Below are positions 55,030 to 63,846 of a stretch of DNA of 64,000 nt, in pieces. Position 1 is the first letter of the stretch. Every line of letters begins with the position of its first letter. Source of the stretch: Flavobacteriaceae bacterium (GTDB taxonomy: Bacteria; Bacteroidota; Bacteroidia; Flavobacteriales; Flavobacteriaceae); NCBI GenBank assembly GCA_020346245.1, contig CP070778.1:2859269-2923268 (forward strand), given 5' to 3'. The position numbers were made by a program, and so were the translations under genes. The notes beneath the pieces are model-generated. The model did not search any database. It saw only the letters and a program-made list of their open reading frames with translations, and was not told the DNA's origin.

Positions 55030-57057
55030 TTAGTCTTTTTTATACTTTTCAAACCAGGTCAGTACACTTGCTATCTTTGCCATAAGGTTACTTGGTTTAT
55101 TGGCAATACCGTGTGATGCTCCCGGAATTCGCACCATGGCCGTTTCTACCTTTTCCAGTTTAAGTGCGGCGTAAAATTGCTCAGATTCGGCAATTGGAGT
55201 ACGGTAATCTTCTTCCCCGGTCAATAGCATAGTAGGAGTTGAAATATTTCCTACATAAGAAATTGGTGATCTTTTTAGGTAGTTGCTTGGATCTTCCCAG
55301 GGTTTATTTGGAAACCAGTATTTATAAAAGAATCCGACTCCATCCGCGTAGAGCACAAAACTATACCAGTTAATGACCGGTTTAGCAACAACCGCTGCAG
55401 CAAATCTGTCTGTTTTTCCAATAATCCATGCGGATAATACTCCACCACCACTGCCTCCTGTAACAAACATATTTTCTTCATCTACAAACCCCTGGCTTAT
55501 TACTTCATCTACACCAGACATGAGGTCATCATAGTCATGATTTGGATAATCATGATGAATTAAGTTTCCAAATTCTTCACCATAGCTAGTGCTACCTCTG
55601 GGATTTGCATATAAGACTAAATAACCCTGAGCCGCATATAACTGTATTTCAGTGGAGAATACCGATCCATAACTTGTAAAGGGTCCACCGTGAATTTCAA
55701 GAATCAAAGGGTATTTTTTGGAAGGATCAAAACCTGGTGGTTTTACCAGCCAACCTTGGATCTTTCGCTTATCAAAAGAAGATTCCCACCATAATTCTTC
55801 AACCCCCGCAACATTCCTATAGGAAAACAGATCATCATTGAGTTTAGTAATTCTCTGATTATTACCTTTATAATAGGCCCCTAAATCTGCAGGATGCTCT
55901 GTGCCACCTAAGGTATATGCAAATTTATTGTTCTTTGAAACGGTAAAAGCAGCAGCATTGTAAGGCCTTCCTAAAGATAAGCCTCCTAAATTTTCGAATA
56001 TACGAGTTACTTTACCAGAGGTAGAAATAAAACCTACTTTCGTATCTCCCTTATCATCGAATTGAAAGTACAACCCCTTCCCATCCCCGGACCAGCTAAT
56101 GTTCTGAATATCCCGGTCAAAGTCTCCGGATAATAGCCTGGAATTTGTCCCGTCTGCATTCATAAGGTATAGTTGTGTGACCTGATATCCCTGATATCTA
56201 TCGTCAAATCCTGTATAGGCAATGAACTTTCCATCCGGGGACAGTGCAGGCCCATTATCCGGTCCCAGCCTATCTGTAAGAGGCTTAATTGAATTATTGG
56301 CTATAGTAAGTTCGTAAATTTCACTATTCATTGTTTCAAATTCATAGTTTTCATGAAGGTTAGCCCCAAAATAAAGTCTTCGGTTGTCCTTTGACCAGAC
56401 AGGAGTACCATGATCATATTCTGAAAAAGTGAGCTGGCGGGGTGAACCTCCATCTGTTGATAAAATAAAAAGCTGGTCATTGCCGCTTTTGTAATATCCT
56501 TGACCATCACCACGGTAGTTCATTTCATCTATATAAACAGGTGGTTTGTTCCATTTAGCACCTTCCGGTTTATCCGGCAATTCGATGATTGATTCCGGTT
56601 TTTTTGGAACAAACATTGCAAATGCCAAATGCCTATCATCATGAGACCAGCTAACAGTTTCTGGGGAAGAAGTGGTATTTGTAAGAGCTGCATAATCTTT
56701 TGTATCCAGCCACATCATATAAAGCTTGAATTTACCATCCTGCATGTTCGACTTAAACACAATTTTAGTGCCATCATGGGACCATCGCGGAGCAAGATCA
56801 TTTTGGTTTCCATTCGTTAATGGCCTGTTTTGAGAGCCGTCAAAATTTACAATCCATAAATTTGAAAGATTCTTGTCGGTCATAATATCCTTAAAATTCC
56901 TCACATAAATTATTCTAGTTCCATCCGGAGATATTTGCGGATCAGAGACATATTCCAAACTAAAAATATCTGTTAGTTCGAGGTTGGTTTTCTGCTGTCC
57001 GAAAGCAGTACCACATAGTAAGAACATAATAAAAAGAATGGATAAGGTGTTTTGCAT
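55030..57057 (-). CDS. S9-family (prolyl oligopeptidase-like) secreted peptidase
   Basis: 675 residues. Signal peptide MQNTLSILFIMFLLCGTAFGQ. The N-terminal beta-propeller (about 25-400) has WD40-like TolB repeats such as PQISPDGTRIIYVRNF. The catalytic alpha/beta-hydrolase has Ser536 in GGSGGG, Asp617 in GEEDYRTP and His649 in GASHGI. It cleaves peptides, often dipeptides or acyl-peptides, in the periplasm or outside. It lies after the terminator of the NTF2-like operon on the same strand. Confidence 0.92.
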   Translation of the reverse strand: MQNTLSILFIMFLLCGTAFGQQKTNLELTDIFSLEYVSDPQISPDGTRIIYVRNFKDIMTDKNLSNLWIVNFDGSQNRPLTNGNQNDLAPRWSHDGTKIVFKSNMQDGKFKLYMMWLDTKDYAALTNTTSSPETVSWSHDDRHLAFAMFVPKKPESIIELPDKPEGAKWNKPPVYIDEMNYRGDGQGYYKSGNDQLFILSTDGGSPRQLTFSEYDHGTPVWSKDNRRLYFGANLHENYEFETMNSEIYELTIANNSIKPLTDRLGPDNGPALSPDGKFIAYTGFDDRYQGYQVTQLYLMNADGTNSRLLSGDFDRDIQNISWSGDGKGLYFQFDDKGDTKVGFISTSGKVTRIFENLGGLSLGRPYNAAAFTVSKNNKFAYTLGGTEHPADLGAYYKGNNQRITKLNDDLFSYRNVAGVEELWWESSFDKRKIQGWLVKPPGFDPSKKYPLILEIHGGPFTSYGSVFSTEIQLYAAQGYLVLYANPRGSTSYGEEFGNLIHHDYPNHDYDDLMSGVDEVISQGFVDEENMFVTGGSGGGVLSAWIIGKTDRFAAAVVAKPVINWYSFVLYADGVGFFYKYWFPNKPWEDPSNYLKRSPISYVGNISTPTMLLTGEEDYRTPIAESEQFYAALKLEKVETAMVRIPGASHGIANKPSNLMAKIASVLTWFEKYKKD

Positions 57058-57161: not shown

Positions 57162-57192
57162 TAAAACAAAACCCGGTATTTACCGGGTTTTG
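57162..57192 (-). terminator. Terminator of the NTF2/alpha-beta-barrel operon
   Basis: Perfect 12-bp stem CAAAACCCGGTA / TACCGGGTTTTG with a 2-nt loop, minus-strand T-rich tail (TTTTACC). It lies 66 bp after the stop of the 57258-58022 gene. Confidence 0.85.
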
Positions 57193-57257: not shown

Positions 57258-58022
57258 TTATTGTCTGTTTTGAGCATTGACGGTTCCGCTAAGTCCGCTT
57301 AGGTCTTCTCTAAAGGACCATAATTCTACTCGATCCCCGTTAGTTGCCGCTTCCACGTCCTTCAGGAATTTTGTAAAACTTCCTTCACCATGCACTTCTT
57401 CAAACTTTTTTGGAAAAGTGTCTTCACGACCCATCCATCCTGAATTGCTAAAGAAATTTACGAAGGCCATATCTCTGCCATCCTCGGTATCCGGCATTTC
57501 ATTAGTGTAAACGCCATAGGTTTCATTAGGGTTTTTTTCCATATTTACCTTCTTAACTCTTTCCAGAATACTGATCATTTCAGGATACTTAAATCTTTTG
57601 AAATCCACCATGAATACTGACAAATACTTCAGTTCAAAATCATTGGAAAAATTGGAGAATTGAGGGTGAAACTTCCAGTACGTTACATCACTTTCGGCAG
57701 TAGTATAAGGAACTACATTTTTACTCCAGTCCTCATCGTGCCCATCTGCAGCAGGCCTGCTATCCATTGCGCTCCAGGGTAAAGGGCCCATTGCCCAAAT
57801 ATATTTTCCGGCATTTTTACCATTGGATATCCAATAAACACGGGCGCCATGGGTACCTTCTGCATGGTATTTTTTATTATGGGCAGCTAAACCTGCTTCA
57901 AATTCTGCAGTTTTAGACGGAATAGCCGTCAACATTACATTTTCCAGGACCACGTATTCATCAGTGCCTTGAGACACTACTAATAGAGGAATAAGGAACA
58001 TCAGATAAAGAACTTTTTTCAT
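57258..58022 (-). CDS. Exported duplicated dimeric alpha/beta-barrel-like protein
   Basis: 254 residues. Signal MKKVLYLMFLIPLLVVSQ. Two similar halves: one with PSKTAEFEAGLAAHNKKYH and YWISNGKNAGKYIWAM, the other with VDFKRFKYPEMISILERV and the MAFVNFFSNSGW strand. This looks like a duplicated ferredoxin-like (ABM/NIPSNAP type) fold. The 59616-60386 protein is built the same way. Secreted, function unknown; last gene of the minus operon. Confidence 0.65.
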   Translation of the reverse strand: MKKVLYLMFLIPLLVVSQGTDEYVVLENVMLTAIPSKTAEFEAGLAAHNKKYHAEGTHGARVYWISNGKNAGKYIWAMGPLPWSAMDSRPAADGHDEDWSKNVVPYTTAESDVTYWKFHPQFSNFSNDFELKYLSVFMVDFKRFKYPEMISILERVKKVNMEKNPNETYGVYTNEMPDTEDGRDMAFVNFFSNSGWMGREDTFPKKFEEVHGEGSFTKFLKDVEAATNGDRVELWSFREDLSGLSGTVNAQNRQ

Positions 58023-58070
58023 TGTGTTTTGGTTTTAATTAAATGTTCGTAATTTATTTTATGATTTATA

Positions 58071-58997
58071 TTAGTTAGCTTTTGGTGGTGTCAATGTGTA
58101 TCCTAATTGACTTAACATATCCATATTGTCAAAAAATGAATCTTCCTGAACAGCCAAGCCACTGCTGTCAAAAGCCCATACACTAAATCCATGGATCTCA
58201 ATTTTTTTTCCAGTCGCGGGGTTATCCATAAACGGCCCTGTATTAGTGCCAGTGCACGTCCAGTTAATATAGGACTTTCCGTCTTTAAGAAAATAGGAAT
58301 CCATTTTCACATTGAAATCCGGAAAACCGGTATGAAATTGGTTCATCATTTCTGCATATTCAGACTGGTTACTCGCTTGCCTAGTTCCATTTGAGTTTCT
58401 AATAACATTAGCCACTGATAGGGCTTTAAAAGCTTCCACATCATTGGTACTCCATGCCTTAACCATTTTATCGTGGTTTGCCATTATGGTTTTCTCAATT
58501 TCCGGCATATTTTTCATCGCCTCAATTTTACGAAGAGCCGTTTGCATAATGGAGTTATCCCAAAAACCATTCTCCTGTACAATTTTCCCATCTAAAATGC
58601 GAATAGTGAGATGAACCGGCAATACCACTACTTCATTATTTTCCTTAAGTGTACCTTCCCATTTCCCCCAGAAATTAACCCATGTATTTCCGTTATCACT
58701 TATTATTTTTTCATAAGTAATATTATCCCCAAAGCCATATGAACTCAAAAGGGCAATATTAGCTTTATGTCCTTCCATGGATTGGGTTATGGTTATACTG
58801 TCATCCCATTGATTATAGTAGACTTTGGCGGTATCAGCATATTTTGCCATCCAGCTTTCCCAATCGCCTTTTTCATAATCAGCCAGCAATCCTTTTACAT
58901 GGTCAATTTCTGGACCTGAAGTACTATACCTTTCCAATTTTTGCCCACAGGCCATCAAAAGGGTTACGACCAGCCCTATTAAAAATATTTTCTTCAT
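58071..58997 (-). CDS. Two-domain NTF2/SnoaL-like lipoprotein (fusion)
   Basis: 308 residues. Lipobox VTLLMAC. The N-terminal NTF2-like domain (about 25-150) has GDWESWMAKYADTAKVYYN and WVNFWGKWEGT and matches the 59023-59547 protein. The C-terminal domain (about 165-305) has FHTGFPDFNV, NWTCTGTNTGPF and NPATGKKIEIHGF, and matches the 60424-60939 protein. So one gene fuses the two types also found singly beside it. SnoaL-like folds cyclise, hydrolyse or bind small organic molecules. Confidence 0.8.
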   Translation of the reverse strand: MKKIFLIGLVVTLLMACGQKLERYSTSGPEIDHVKGLLADYEKGDWESWMAKYADTAKVYYNQWDDSITITQSMEGHKANIALLSSYGFGDNITYEKIISDNGNTWVNFWGKWEGTLKENNEVVVLPVHLTIRILDGKIVQENGFWDNSIMQTALRKIEAMKNMPEIEKTIMANHDKMVKAWSTNDVEAFKALSVANVIRNSNGTRQASNQSEYAEMMNQFHTGFPDFNVKMDSYFLKDGKSYINWTCTGTNTGPFMDNPATGKKIEIHGFSVWAFDSSGLAVQEDSFFDNMDMLSQLGYTLTPPKAN

Positions 58998-59022
58998 TTA
59001 TTATTTAAATTTTTGTTTAAGT

Positions 59023-59547
59023 CTATTCTTCCATTGCCTCTTCCTCGACTTCCATTTCGGATTGAATTTTTTGCATAACTGCCATATATTCAGATAAATC
59101 GTAATATGCGTGTTCTTCCACTATTTTGCCATCCACATATTGAACAGTAAGATGAACCGGAATTATTAATTTCTGGTTATTCGCTGCAATGGTTCCTTCC
59201 CATGTGCCCCAGAAGTTTACCCATTTTTCATTTTCATCGTCAATTACCATCTCGTAGAATATATCCTTATCTGTAAATCCATAACTAGACGCACCGGCGA
59301 GCAAACCTTTAAGTCCTTCCAGCACTTCTGCCGGCGAGCTTTTATCCAGGGTATTGTGAGATAATTTAGCGGTATCGGCGTAATGCGACATCCAGGTAGT
59401 CCAATCTCCTTCATTATAAGCCTTAATATGGGCTTTTGCGACGTCTATTTCCGGTGAAGAAGAGAAGTACCTCGGTTCTGCATTTTTACAACTTATAAAA
59501 AATGTGATCGCCAGGCAGATTAAAATAATTTTTTTCATTTTTTTCAT
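59023..59547 (-). CDS. NTF2-like lipoprotein, type A
   Basis: 174 residues. Lipobox ITFFISC. Single NTF2-like domain with GDWTTWMSHYADTAKLSHN, WVNFWGTWEGT and IIPVHLTVQYVDGKIVEE. Same type as the N-terminal half of the adjacent fusion. The start at 59547 has an alternative Met three codons in. The acidic C-terminus (EVEEEAMEE) is unusual. Confidence 0.78.
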   Translation of the reverse strand: MKKMKKIILICLAITFFISCKNAEPRYFSSSPEIDVAKAHIKAYNEGDWTTWMSHYADTAKLSHNTLDKSSPAEVLEGLKGLLAGASSYGFTDKDIFYEMVIDDENEKWVNFWGTWEGTIAANNQKLIIPVHLTVQYVDGKIVEEHAYYDLSEYMAVMQKIQSEMEVEEEAMEE

Positions 59548-59565
59548 TTTATTGGTTAGTGAATA

Positions 59566-59601
59566 GTAAAAACCCCAGTAGTTGACCTAAACTATTGGGG
59601 T
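59566..59601 (-). terminator. Possible internal terminator after the 59616 gene
   Basis: Minus-strand stem ACCCCAATAGTT / AACTACTGGGGT with one G-T pair, followed by TTTTT. Probably partial, so downstream genes may still be read. Confidence 0.5.
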
Positions 59602-59615
59602 GATGCTGTTTATTT

Positions 59616-60386
59616 TTATTCTGATGGACTATAAGCCATATCGGGTCTCATTCTTCCTGAAACTACTTCGAATTTCATTAAGTGGCTCCTTAATTCACCA
59701 TATAATTTGGGCCACTCATCACCCAAAAGCTCATTATTGGCGATTACTTTTGCACTATAGTCCGAAGGATTCTTTGCGGCCGCGGCTACCATGTAAAATT
59801 CACCTCTGGTACCAAAACCACTTTTGTAAACCCTGTAATAGAATTTTGAACCTTTGCTGGCAAATAAATTTGTTATGGCTTCCATAGATTTTTTTACCAA
59901 AGCCCTGTTTGAAGGTGTAATATGGAAGTAGAAGAATTTGCGATAATCTTCACCTTCCGGGGTTTGAGTGATCCCCTCAGGCATATAAGACAAAGATTTG
60001 TCTAAATGCAAGATATAATCCTGTTCAACATCATAGCATTCATCCATTCGGTTAAACAAATTATAAAAGGTCTCTTTACCCATTTTTTCCATCAAGGTTT
60101 TGAAGATTGGTTTGTCAATATCCGCCATATTAGCAATAGGAGACACCCATAAATAGCGGTCATCTTCAGTGTTAGTTACAATGCTACTGAATTCCTGAAT
60201 GTTATGCTTTCTCAGGTTATCCGTAAGTTCTTTGCAAATAGCTTCATAATCGGCTGCTTTGGAGGGTTTTACTACATCCTCATGTATCCAAAATGCCTGT
60301 GAACTGCTCGCTTCCTGGGCAATACCTATTGCCCCGGTAAGTATTAGTAAAAGTAAACTTGTTAATCCAGTCTTTAGTTTTTTCAT
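59616..60386 (-). CDS. Exported duplicated dimeric alpha/beta-barrel-like protein
   Basis: 256 residues. Signal LLLLILTGAIGIAQ. Two halves with the same layout: PSKAADYEAICKELTDNLRK and DDRYLWVSPIANM in the first, KSMEAITNLFASKGSKFYY and GEFYMVAAAAKNP in the second. It shares its plan with the 57258-58022 protein. Secreted, function unknown. It lies between two NTF2-like genes of the same strand. Confidence 0.65.
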   Translation of the reverse strand: MKKLKTGLTSLLLLILTGAIGIAQEASSSQAFWIHEDVVKPSKAADYEAICKELTDNLRKHNIQEFSSIVTNTEDDRYLWVSPIANMADIDKPIFKTLMEKMGKETFYNLFNRMDECYDVEQDYILHLDKSLSYMPEGITQTPEGEDYRKFFYFHITPSNRALVKKSMEAITNLFASKGSKFYYRVYKSGFGTRGEFYMVAAAAKNPSDYSAKVIANNELLGDEWPKLYGELRSHLMKFEVVSGRMRPDMAYSPSE

Positions 60387-60423
60387 TAGTAATTCAATTT
60401 TAGTTAAACTTATTAGTATTTAA

Positions 60424-60939
60424 TTATTCAAGTACCGGAGATTTTAGGCTATAACCCAATTGCTGTAGAAGGTCCAGTTCGTTATAATACACATCTTCCT
60501 TATACAATTTTCCCTCTTTGGTGAAATACAGGTGGGAAAGTCCCTGAATCTTTATTTTTTTACCTGTGGCTGGCATTTCACCAAATTCACCGGTATTACT
60601 GCCCGTACACTCCCAATTCATAAATATGTTGTTACCTTCAATATATGCATCATTATATTGAATTTTCAGATCGGGAAAGCCAGTGAAAAATACATTCATA
60701 TGAGCTGCCATTTCATTTTCATTCTTGGCAACACTGATACCGTTGAGCATTCTAACAAAATTTGTGTCAACCAACTCATTCAGTTTAGAGACATTCTGAT
60801 CATTCCAACACGAATCAATAAATACTTTTAAATTATTGGAAAGTTTATTTTTTATAGATGATTCCGAACTTTTGTTTTCTTTTCTGCATGCCGTAATTAC
60901 AACCAACAAAACAAAAATGTAAACGACTGATTTGGACAT
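60424..60939 (-). CDS. SnoaL-like lipoprotein, type B
   Basis: 171 residues. Lipobox VVITAC. Single SnoaL-like domain with FFTGFPDLKIQYND, MNWECTGSNTGEF, MPATGKKIKIQGLSH and QQLGYSLKSP. It matches the second half of the 58071 fusion protein. First gene of the five-gene minus operon, facing the histidine kinase gene across a 205-bp gap. Confidence 0.78.
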   Translation of the reverse strand: MSKSVVYIFVLLVVITACRKENKSSESSIKNKLSNNLKVFIDSCWNDQNVSKLNELVDTNFVRMLNGISVAKNENEMAAHMNVFFTGFPDLKIQYNDAYIEGNNIFMNWECTGSNTGEFGEMPATGKKIKIQGLSHLYFTKEGKLYKEDVYYNELDLLQQLGYSLKSPVLE

Positions 60940-61144
60940 GATCTTCTACAAAGATTACCCGATTGGCGTTCAACATGCCATGCGGGTATACTAAAGACGC
61001 TATATTCCGTCACTAATAAAAACAGCTAAGGACGAAAGGCTCTTTTTACTGTCCGAATGTCCATTTTCATTTATCGAAGCAATTTTATTAAAAAGTTGTA
61101 TATTTAAAAATTGCAGGTCCCCCATCGGTTATTAGTAAACTATC

Positions 61145-63106
61145 ATGGTAAGCCGAATTTTTACGGTTTTGTTGTTGTCTGCGTGCTCGTTTTTGAGTCC
61201 TAAACTTGTTCGGGCCCAAATTATAGACTTTACCACTGAAAATTCCTACAAAAGAGTATTCCTTGACACCGATAATTTTGGAATTTCCTATCTGGATATT
61301 CTTGAGAGATCCTACCCTTTAAGCAAAATAGATACGATCCAATTCAATATCCTGAATGATCTTGCCTACTATTGGCATACAAGGAATTTGACAAAAGCCC
61401 TGAATTTTACAAAAGAAGGTTTACAATTAACCCGTGAAAAAAAAGATACCCTATGGGAAGGTAGGTTTCAAATTACTGAAGGAGCCATTCTTCTAAGGAT
61501 GGAAAAACTGGATAGTGCACGAATTGTTTTGGAATCTGCAATGAAAAAGGTTTTGAAGAATGACTTACCATTGCTCTATACTCAGCTGGGTTATGTTAAT
61601 GAAAGACAGGGAAAACTGGATAAGGCTGCTGATATTGCTATGGAAACCTTTTTATTGGGGGAGGAATTGAAAGATAAAAGGGCAATGGCTGTGGCATTTA
61701 GTGATTTAAGTAATTTATTTTGGAAACAATCACGCTTTGAAAAGGCATTAGAATATGGATTAAAGGCCTTAACTCTTTTTGAAGAAAGGGGGTTAAGCGA
61801 CCTGGATTATGATTTTACTCTATATGTTGTTGGAAATTGCTATATGGCCCTCAATGAGCATGAAGAAGCTCTTAAATATTTTAAACATTCAATAGCGATT
61901 GGAGAACGATATGGCTTTTTTAATAATCTGTGCGACGTATATATTTCTATGGTCTATCTAAAGGCGTATCTCAACGATTTTGGAGCAGCAGATCTTGCAG
62001 GGAAAAACGCCATTAAATATGCGGAATTGTTGGATAATAACTTTATGTTAATGCGTTCCTGGTTATCAATAGGAAAATCGCAAAACCTGCAGGGAAAATA
62101 CATTTCTGCAATTGAGAGTCTCGAGCGAAGCATTGAAATTGCTACCGATGATTTTGGAGATGACTTTTATCTTAGTCAGGCCTATGAGGAATTGGGTAAA
62201 GCCTATGCCGGGAATCATAATTACAGAGAAGCATATCAGGCCTATGCAGAGTACGATAAGCTTAAAAAGGAAATATTTACTACTGAGGCTGACCAGCATA
62301 TTTCCTTATTGCTCACAGAGTTTGATGTGGCACAAAAGGAGAGCACCATTATGGTGCAGGAAAATCAAATAAAAAAACAAAGATCCCGACAAACACTCAT
62401 GATTCTCATTGGAGGCCTGCTACTCTTTATTTTGTTGCTATTATATAATACTATACAAACCAATAAGAAAAAAAACAGACTACTTAAAAAGCAAAATGAC
62501 GAGAAAGAATATTTGTTGAAAGAAATACACCATCGTGTAAAGAATAATTTGGAAATCGTTTCCAGTTTGTTGTCCCTGCAATCAGAACAGGTAGGAGATT
62601 CAAAGGTTGCCGATGCCATGCAGAAAAGTCAACATAGGGTACATAGCATGAGTATGATTCACCAAAAACTTTATCAGGGTAAAAGTTTCTCAAGCATTGA
62701 AATGAAGGAATATTTCGTGAACCTGGGGAATTATATTGTTGATATATACGGGGCATCAGACAGAATTGAGATTATGTGTGAAATGAAGGAACTGCAACTG
62801 GATGTGGATACCGCCATTCCCATAGGTTTAATCGTAAATGAGTTGCTTACTAATTCCTTAAAATATGCCTTCCCGGAAAATCGAAAAGGGTGTATAAAAA
62901 TAAGCCTTACTGAAACAGAAAATCAGCTTCATCTCGATGTGTCAGACAACGGAATAGGTAGAAATTATCAAGAAAAAATTCAGGGTACCGGCTTTGGCAC
63001 CCAGTTAATAGATTTACTTACAAGACAATTAGAAGGTAAAATGTCCTTAAATATTAAGAAGGGTACAGCAGTTTCCTTTGAATTCCAAAACCATAAAGCA
63101 GCTTAA
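61145..63106 (+). CDS. TPR sensor histidine kinase (HisKA_2 type)
   Basis: 653 residues. Signal MVSRIFTVLLLSACSF, a periplasmic TPR domain (about 60-380), a membrane helix LMILIGGLLLFILLLLY (about 420-437), a short coiled coil, then HisKA_2 with EIHHRVKNNLEIVSSLLSLQ (His462/His463) and an ATPase with NELLTNSLKYAF, DNGIG and GTGFGTQL. It senses a signal and phosphorylates the next gene product. Divergent from the NTF2-like operon. Confidence 0.92.
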   Translation: MVSRIFTVLLLSACSFLSPKLVRAQIIDFTTENSYKRVFLDTDNFGISYLDILERSYPLSKIDTIQFNILNDLAYYWHTRNLTKALNFTKEGLQLTREKKDTLWEGRFQITEGAILLRMEKLDSARIVLESAMKKVLKNDLPLLYTQLGYVNERQGKLDKAADIAMETFLLGEELKDKRAMAVAFSDLSNLFWKQSRFEKALEYGLKALTLFEERGLSDLDYDFTLYVVGNCYMALNEHEEALKYFKHSIAIGERYGFFNNLCDVYISMVYLKAYLNDFGAADLAGKNAIKYAELLDNNFMLMRSWLSIGKSQNLQGKYISAIESLERSIEIATDDFGDDFYLSQAYEELGKAYAGNHNYREAYQAYAEYDKLKKEIFTTEADQHISLLLTEFDVAQKESTIMVQENQIKKQRSRQTLMILIGGLLLFILLLLYNTIQTNKKKNRLLKKQNDEKEYLLKEIHHRVKNNLEIVSSLLSLQSEQVGDSKVADAMQKSQHRVHSMSMIHQKLYQGKSFSSIEMKEYFVNLGNYIVDIYGASDRIEIMCEMKELQLDVDTAIPIGLIVNELLTNSLKYAFPENRKGCIKISLTETENQLHLDVSDNGIGRNYQEKIQGTGFGTQLIDLLTRQLEGKMSLNIKKGTAVSFEFQNHKAA

Positions 63107-63108
63107 AC

Positions 63109-63846
63109 ATGGATAACGTAATTAGAATTTTAATTGTGGAAGATGATATGATTATCGCCGCGAATCTCTCATTGCAATTAACAAAGTTGGGTTACGAAGT
63201 CATTGGTATTGTATCACGGGGCGAAGACGCTATTAGTAATGCCAACCAAAATAAACCTGATATCATTTTAATGGATGTAAACCTAAAAGGTTCTATTGAT
63301 GGCATAGATGCAGCTATTGCTATTCATCTGCAAAATGAAATACCCATAATATATTTAACGGCCAACAATGATGATGGCACTTTTTCCAGGGCAAAAGAGA
63401 CGCAACCTTATGCTTTTATTTCCAAACCATTTAACAAATTGGATCTTCAGCGCACAATTGCTTTGGTTGTAGAGAAAATAAAGGATAATGGAGGTCTGAA
63501 ACAATTACAGCCGGAAAGTAATTTACTGGTTTTACCAGATCGTATTTTTGTCAGGTATAATGGGAGAATGGTAAAAATATTATTAGACCAAATTCTTTAT
63601 ATAGAGGCAGAACGGAATTATTGTAATATCTATACCACACTGGGTAAATACCTCGTGGTAAGTACTTTAAAGACAATTGAAAATGAACTTAAGGCCAGTT
63701 GTTTTTTACGTGTCCATAGGTCATTTATCGTCAATATTTGTAAATTGGATGCTATAGCCGATAGTCATTTGGAGATAGGCAGAAAAGTTATTCCAATAAG
63801 CAAGTCCTACAAGGAATTTTTACTAGGGAGATTGCACACTATATAA
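63109..63846 (+). CDS. LytTR-family response regulator
   Basis: 245 residues. Receiver domain with the acidic pair in VEDDM, phospho-acceptor Asp56 (LMDVNLKGS), LTAN, and Lys106 (ISKPF). C-terminal LytTR DNA-binding domain (about 145-240) with EAERNYCNIYTTLGKYL and HRSFIVNICKLDAI. It starts 2 bp after the kinase stop, so the two form one unit. Likely target: the divergent secreted-protein operon, inferred from position. Confidence 0.93.
   Translation: MDNVIRILIVEDDMIIAANLSLQLTKLGYEVIGIVSRGEDAISNANQNKPDIILMDVNLKGSIDGIDAAIAIHLQNEIPIIYLTANNDDGTFSRAKETQPYAFISKPFNKLDLQRTIALVVEKIKDNGGLKQLQPESNLLVLPDRIFVRYNGRMVKILLDQILYIEAERNYCNIYTTLGKYLVVSTLKTIENELKASCFLRVHRSFIVNICKLDAIADSHLEIGRKVIPISKSYKEFLLGRLHTI

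Follow-up and report, generated by a model that had tools for sequence, protein, structure and literature searches.

An exported NTF2-like and double-ABM gene cluster as a module of a predicted LytTR two-component regulon in Flavobacteriaceae

Which process is served by a cluster of five genes whose products all carry export signals, and of which one fuses two domains that its neighbours encode singly? The question is raised by a stretch of 64,000 nucleotides (the window) from a Flavobacteriaceae bacterium (assembly GCA_020346245.1, contig CP070778.1, positions 2,859,269 to 2,923,268), whose minus strand carries the genes here called B, b1, A, A-B and b2. An earlier note on this DNA, made from the sequence alone, had described the genes as an operon, perhaps for an undescribed extracytoplasmic small-molecule system. 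It missed the two-component system and the operator next to the cluster, through which the five genes are connected with eight further genomic sites. The five genes probably make up the operator-proximal module of a two-component regulon that is dispersed over the genome and apparently undescribed. LytTR two-component regulons are already known as a class; the operator, its cargo and the exported NTF2/double-ABM set are apparently undescribed. In keeping with the novelty suggested in the earlier note, no description of the gene set, the operator or the exported cargo was found in the searchable literature (open-licence papers only).

The operator and its regulon

The cluster, the adjacent two-component system and the elements between them are arranged as follows.

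60939-60424, minus strand: gene B, 171 amino acids (aa); lipoprotein with lipobox ITAC; NTF2 fold, SnoaL (PF07366); first in the transcription unit
60386-59616, minus strand: gene b1, 256 aa; signal peptide ending near GIAQ; two fused ABM-type (ferredoxin-like) domains
59547-59023, minus strand: gene A, 174 aa; lipoprotein with lipobox FISC; NTF2 fold, SnoaL_2 (PF12680)
58997-58071, minus strand: gene A-B, 308 aa; lipoprotein with lipobox LMAC; fused A-type and B-type NTF2 domains
58022-57258, minus strand: gene b2, 254 aa; signal peptide ending near VVSQ; conserved, no named family
61145-63106, plus strand: sensor histidine kinase with signal peptide, periplasmic TPR domain, one transmembrane segment, HisKA_2 and HATPase_c; divergent from B
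63109-63846, plus strand: response regulator with receiver (PF00072) and LytTR (PF04397) domains, both above cut-off; co-directional, 2 bp after the kinase
61071-61078, minus strand: upstream half-site TTCGATAA (consensus TTYGRTAA), in phase, 21 bp from the core
61030-61057, minus strand: operator core TTCGGACA-N13-TTCGTCC, a direct repeat with a period of 21 bp and no mismatch
61019-61021, minus strand: putative -33 element TT(T/G), at a fixed distance, 8 bp downstream of the operator
60991-60998, minus strand: putative -7 element, here GTCTTTAG (family consensus TTnnTTAG), at a fixed distance from the operator

In 52 of 81 loci surveyed (80 named loci and the window), the B/b1 operon has the TPR-HisKA_2 kinase gene directly upstream of it in divergent orientation. 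The intergenic region shared by kinase and operon carries TTCGGACA-N13-TTCGTCC in 46 of these 52 divergent loci, with a period of 21 in all 46; in the other six, annotated starts shorten the region or the available stretches are short. When 26 non-redundant regions are aligned on the core, the TTYGRTAA half-site, TT(T/G) at -33 and TTnnTTAG at -7 recur with invariant spacing. By the rule described for LytTR regulators, direct repeats separated by 12 bp (11-13 bp) precede the -35 element by about 10 bp (PMC6193735), and the layout read from these alignments matches that rule. The adjacent LytTR regulator is the predicted binder of the operator, an assignment that is highly likely.

The same sequence is found at other places in the genome. 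A search with a degenerate operator pattern gave 7 matches against 0 for the reversed control, and a strict pattern allowing at most one mismatch gave 9 sites where 0.26 were expected. All nine are intergenic and stand 65-97 bp before a start codon; eight precede genes of exported NTF2-like or ~250-aa barrel-type proteins and the ninth precedes a methyltransferase gene.

One site: the window operon B-b1-A-AB-b2
Two sites: b2 paralogues (profile E 2.5e-55 and 6e-48)
One site: a 308-aa exported tandem-NTF2 protein
One site: a 167-aa lipoprotein, NTF2-like, with a SnoaL_2 match under the Pfam cut-off and a profile E of 2.9e-08 against B
Three sites: exported ~255-265-aa proteins b3, b4 and b5, one family
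One site (L229:4930-4957): an S-adenosylmethionine-dependent methyltransferase that has an Rv2258c-like winged-helix domain and, alone among the operator-linked gene products of the genome, no export signal

The other operator matches in the window have three mismatches each. Matches that fall inside genes were treated as chance (L230, L234, L235, L237, L249, L250, L252, L253, L255-L258, and likewise L277 and L278 in coding regions), and neither L260, inside a gene, nor L261, with two mismatches, was counted as an operator site. The dispersed sites, too, have the third half-site; the coding-region matches L256, L277 and L278 lack it.

Conservation was surveyed in 249 genomes of the family Flavobacteriaceae, of which 51 encode the kinase. 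Exact operators are found in 30 genomes and the kinase in every one of these (p ~2e-25, a value that overstates independence, the genomes being related). Of 20 test genomes, 10 have the degenerate operator, and nine of the 10 have the kinase-linked cluster as well. Five target genes have orthologues in other genera that carry the operator. The operator, its conservation, the fixed spacing of the promoter elements, the restriction to kinase genomes and what the genes behind it encode are results of sequence comparison, and the regulon is very probably real. In three genera (L245, L251 and L271) the operator precedes the gene of a ~600-aa lipoprotein which, judged by eye, resembles a repeat beta-propeller of the SMP-30/NHL type; this suggests that such propeller-like lipoproteins are further enzyme-like members of the regulon.

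The five-gene cluster and its conservation

All five open reading frames are intact, in the order and on the strand given in the earlier note, and all five products have the export signals it described. Gene B matches SnoaL PF07366 at 81.3 bits (Pfam cut-off 28.4) and gene A matches SnoaL_2 PF12680 at 33.9 bits (cut-off 27). Gene A-B matches both families: its N-terminal half is of the SnoaL_2 type and its C-terminal half is SnoaL PF07366 (78.7 bits, cut-off 28.4; best stretch at residues 178-298). The fusion proposed earlier is genuine, since residues 1-168 of A-B share 46% identity with A, and residues 166-305 share 39% with B, both from the same genome. No Pfam family above its cut-off and no usable PDB sequence match was found for b1 and b2, and NCBIfam gave nothing above cut-off for any of the five proteins. 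The earlier statement that no catalytic family can be named is half correct, since the SnoaL/NTF2 superfamily includes A, B and A-B.

Whether the genes form one operon is less simple than had been proposed. Their order on a single strand agrees with it, but two hairpins bear on the reading.

59572-59601, minus strand: hairpin followed by a T run between b1 and A; possible attenuator or terminator dividing B-b1 from A-AB-b2
57167-57192, minus strand: strong intrinsic-terminator-like hairpin after b2; separates b2 from an S9 peptidase gene

With such a hairpin and T run between b1 and A, and a strong terminator behind b2, the cluster may have two expression levels instead of forming a simple five-gene operon. 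In Eudoraea, and in a few genera besides, the S9-type peptidase gene downstream of b2 (55030-57057, minus strand), with PD40 propeller repeats, is a conserved neighbour of the cluster; because of the terminator after b2 it is not counted as part of the unit.

The earlier reading depended on conservation of the gene set beyond this strain, and such conservation is found. The gene b1 is present in 77 of the 249 genomes and adjoins A, A-B or B in 62, and A-B fusions, counted as matches spanning both domains, recur in 16. The b1 protein of Eudoraea adriatica is 93% identical, strain DSM 19308 of that species has the same cluster, and the named relatives mark the window genome as that of a Eudoraea or a near relative. 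Gene order and partners differ between genomes (b1-A, A-b1, B-b1-AB, extra genes) while the linkage persists; compared at sequence level, the cluster is conserved in marine flavobacteria and is not a product of chance. The clusters of relatives add downstream genes for an O-methyltransferase, an exported RidA-like lipoprotein, an exported cupin, a short-chain dehydrogenase/reductase (SDR), an epimerase and a thioesterase. Of 41 loci examined at first, about 15 show a second context, in which A-b1 lies between an rsmD-like methyltransferase gene and dnaX and the kinase is absent; the three genomes of this context that were tested (G061, G125 and G159) lack the degenerate operator. A few genes upstream of the cluster, several named loci (L136-L139, L160, L162 and others) encode a LytS-type kinase, small proteins with two transmembrane segments and a PaiB-like flavin mononucleotide-binding protein (PF04299). 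The flavobacterial cluster is also present on contigs labelled Chlorobiota and Deltaproteobacteria (L177 and L214), for which mis-binning is likely.

Two other explanations of these patterns concern the motif and the linkage. The conserved motif might be the promoter of an extracytoplasmic function (ECF) sigma factor, with GGAC as -35 and CGTC as -10 elements 16 bp apart, and the set would then be under such a factor. GGAC-N16-CGTC does resemble ECF promoters, and the distance to the start codons leaves a plausible leader. However, a separate -33/-7 pair is found at a fixed distance downstream in the 26 non-redundant regions, a third in-phase half-site (TTYGRTAA) stands 21 bp upstream, the presence of the motif follows that of the adjacent kinase (30 of 30 genomes), and no ECF sigma factor gene was seen in the neighbourhood, which together make this explanation very unlikely. 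It is still harder to believe that the genes are no more than syntenic neighbours, encoding small secreted proteins with unrelated functions and held together by descent only. One clade does keep A-b1 at a single fixed spot beside dnaX, but elsewhere order and partners vary without loss of linkage, and descent alone is disfavoured because dispersed paralogues bear the same operator.

Folds and a possible function

The model of b1 (built with 61 homologues) has a predicted local distance difference test (pLDDT) score of 92 and a predicted template modelling (pTM) score of 0.83, and comprises two successive beta-alpha-beta-beta-alpha-beta units, in agreement with the duplicated barrel that had been read from its sequence. 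Its best structural matches are full-length and all of the two-domain ABM type: the anthrone-oxidase-like 5f9p (Z 15.0 over 214 residues), the monooxygenase PenE (9kdp, Z 14.7) and sulfur oxygenase reductase (Z ~14), at identities of only 9-14%. No ABM profile was matched by b1 in Pfam at E up to 1, and none in NCBIfam. Invariant residues among the 61 sequences include H35, D37, Y47, Y78, Y118, Y134 and R149. A haem enzyme of the chlorite dismutase/HemQ kind was considered and dropped: the sole invariant histidine is H35, in the N-terminal domain, and the haem-ligand histidine of these enzymes presumably lies in the C-terminal domain. Profile comparison of b1 with b2 after trimming of signal peptides gave no detectable sequence similarity between the two and no sequence trace of internal duplication; a kinship of the two at 78.6% in the first profile comparison came from the signal peptides and vanished once they were trimmed. 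Profile comparison supports only the grouping of b3 with b4/b5 (96.5%), and no common family is claimed for b1, b2 and b3.

The structure prediction of A-B (29 homologues) gave two confident NTF2 domains with a pLDDT of 90.8; with a pTM of 0.60, the arrangement of the domains relative to each other was not confidently predicted. Its single-domain structural neighbours are SnoaL2, ChaU, KstA15 and AclR. Among two-domain structures it comes closest to Lsd19 and the MonBI-MonBII complex; superposition of the two domains together is poor (root-mean-square deviation ~19 A). The profile of B leads to SnoaL2/AclR (listed as SnoL) and to ester cyclases. In a remote profile alignment with the closest structure, EDVYYN of B stands opposite HWDVFN and the Asp appears shifted or replaced; this Asp is presumably the catalytic residue of SnoaL-type cyclases. 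No polyketide synthase-like open reading frame was seen in the window or among the recurring neighbour families of the 81 loci.

NTF2/SnoaL and double-ABM folds co-occur with methyltransferases, SDR, RidA-like and cupin proteins, a combination which suggests that an organic compound of small size, most probably an aromatic or hydrophobic one, is processed outside the cytoplasm. In the proposed mechanism, the periplasmic TPR domain of the kinase would sense an envelope signal or a protein partner, and the kinase would phosphorylate the LytTR regulator. The regulator would then bind direct repeats that are in phase with each other (TTYGRTAA-N13-TTCGGACA-N13-TTCGTCC), with a promoter of the Bacteroidota type 8 bp downstream, and turn on B-b1-A-AB-b2 and the eight further sites. 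The NTF2-type pockets of A, B and A-B and the double-ABM pockets of b1 would carry out paired steps on small molecules, with the detoxifying or remodelling of a small compound as the most likely role. We infer the identity of the binder, the activation, and an extracytoplasmic action of the products on small molecules, which are probably hydrophobic or aromatic. That the regulon products process small molecules in the envelope has about even chances, and the case for A and B acting as a pair is just as finely balanced. More tentative, and rather doubtful as a whole, is the full picture of an undescribed Flavobacteriaceae envelope two-component system whose LytTR regulon supplies the periplasm or surface with NTF2/SnoaL and double-ABM enzymes that transform an external small molecule.

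Several points weigh against this account. As further response regulators are encoded in this genome, the binder is assigned on adjacency and co-occurrence. About 15 genomes have the A-b1 pair without the kinase, which means that the pair can function in the absence of this regulator. Some operator-linked genes elsewhere, such as those of exported 721-aa and 702-aa proteins, encode no obvious small-molecule enzymes, and the likeness of the modelled folds to oxygenases and cyclases does not show catalysis.

Two further explanations accept the linkage and read the proteins differently. The exported NTF2 and barrel proteins could be carriers of a signal or ligand that feed the TPR domain of the kinase, so that the locus would be sensory (for example in cell-cell signalling) instead of enzymatic. 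Proteins or peptides are what TPR domains bind, the kinase gene diverges from the neighbouring operon in most loci, and several of the exported proteins are lipoproteins facing the same compartment as the TPR domain. Such a role is nevertheless unlikely, as nine paralogous target units, together with the O-methyltransferase, RidA, SDR and cupin proteins added in relatives, resemble an output regulon, and the A-b1 pair is kept in about 15 genomes that lack the kinase. Alternatively, A and B could be the two subunits of an enzyme resembling the polyether epoxide hydrolases, with an epoxide or a polyether-type compound as substrate. These hydrolases occur both as separate proteins that act synergistically (MonBI, inactive alone, and MonBII, weakly active, are strongly active together) and in a fused form, Lsd19 (PMC8827043), and they are the closest two-domain folds to A-B. 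The poor two-domain superposition, the pTM of the A-B model and the lack of a polyketide synthase in the window speak against such an enzyme, which would also leave b1 and b2 unexplained; this explanation is improbable. By analogy, MonBI/MonBII and Lsd19 are a precedent for the fused-and-single pattern and no proof of it.

With the regulon as the favoured explanation, a cluster of secreted, so far unnamed proteins becomes a defined, testable unit with one regulator, one operator sequence, nine predicted sites in this genome and the same families behind the operator in other genera. This would provide a first functional handle on exported SnoaL/NTF2 proteins and on unnamed ~250-residue proteins, which are frequent in marine Bacteroidota and are without useful annotation.

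Comparison with known systems

Known LytTR systems of the AgrA, AlgR and HdrR/BrsR type share with this locus the LytTR domain and 12-bp-spaced direct repeats (period 21) about 10 bp upstream of the -35 element. Here too the operator lies between regulator and target, which is consistent with autoregulation. The present system differs in its half-sites (TTCGGACA/TTCGTCC) and third in-phase half-site, in its periplasmic TPR sensor kinase, and in a regulon cargo of mostly exported NTF2-like and ~250-aa barrel-type proteins.

NTF2/SnoaL and double-ABM folds are otherwise best known from cytoplasmic aromatic-polyketide tailoring. The two-domain ABM-type proteins (5f9p, PenE and sulfur oxygenase reductase) consist, like b1, of two fused ferredoxin-like/ABM domains (Z 13.8-15), but b1 has low identity to them and no Pfam ABM match. 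Chlorite dismutase and HemQ have the same two-domain ABM-type fold, whereas b1 is without an invariant C-terminal histidine as haem ligand. The SnoaL polyketide cyclases and hydroxylases (SnoaL2, AclR, ChaU and KstA15) share the fold and PF07366 with B and with the C-terminal half of A-B at ~22-25% domain identity; unlike them, B and A-B are exported lipoproteins outside any polyketide cluster. Lsd19 and MonBI/MonBII have two NTF2-type domains that are fused in one organism, separate in another, and act together, and the present cluster is a second setting in which such domains are both single and fused. These enzymes are cytoplasmic antibiotic-tailoring enzymes of Streptomyces, and their domain placement is not reproduced in the A-B model.

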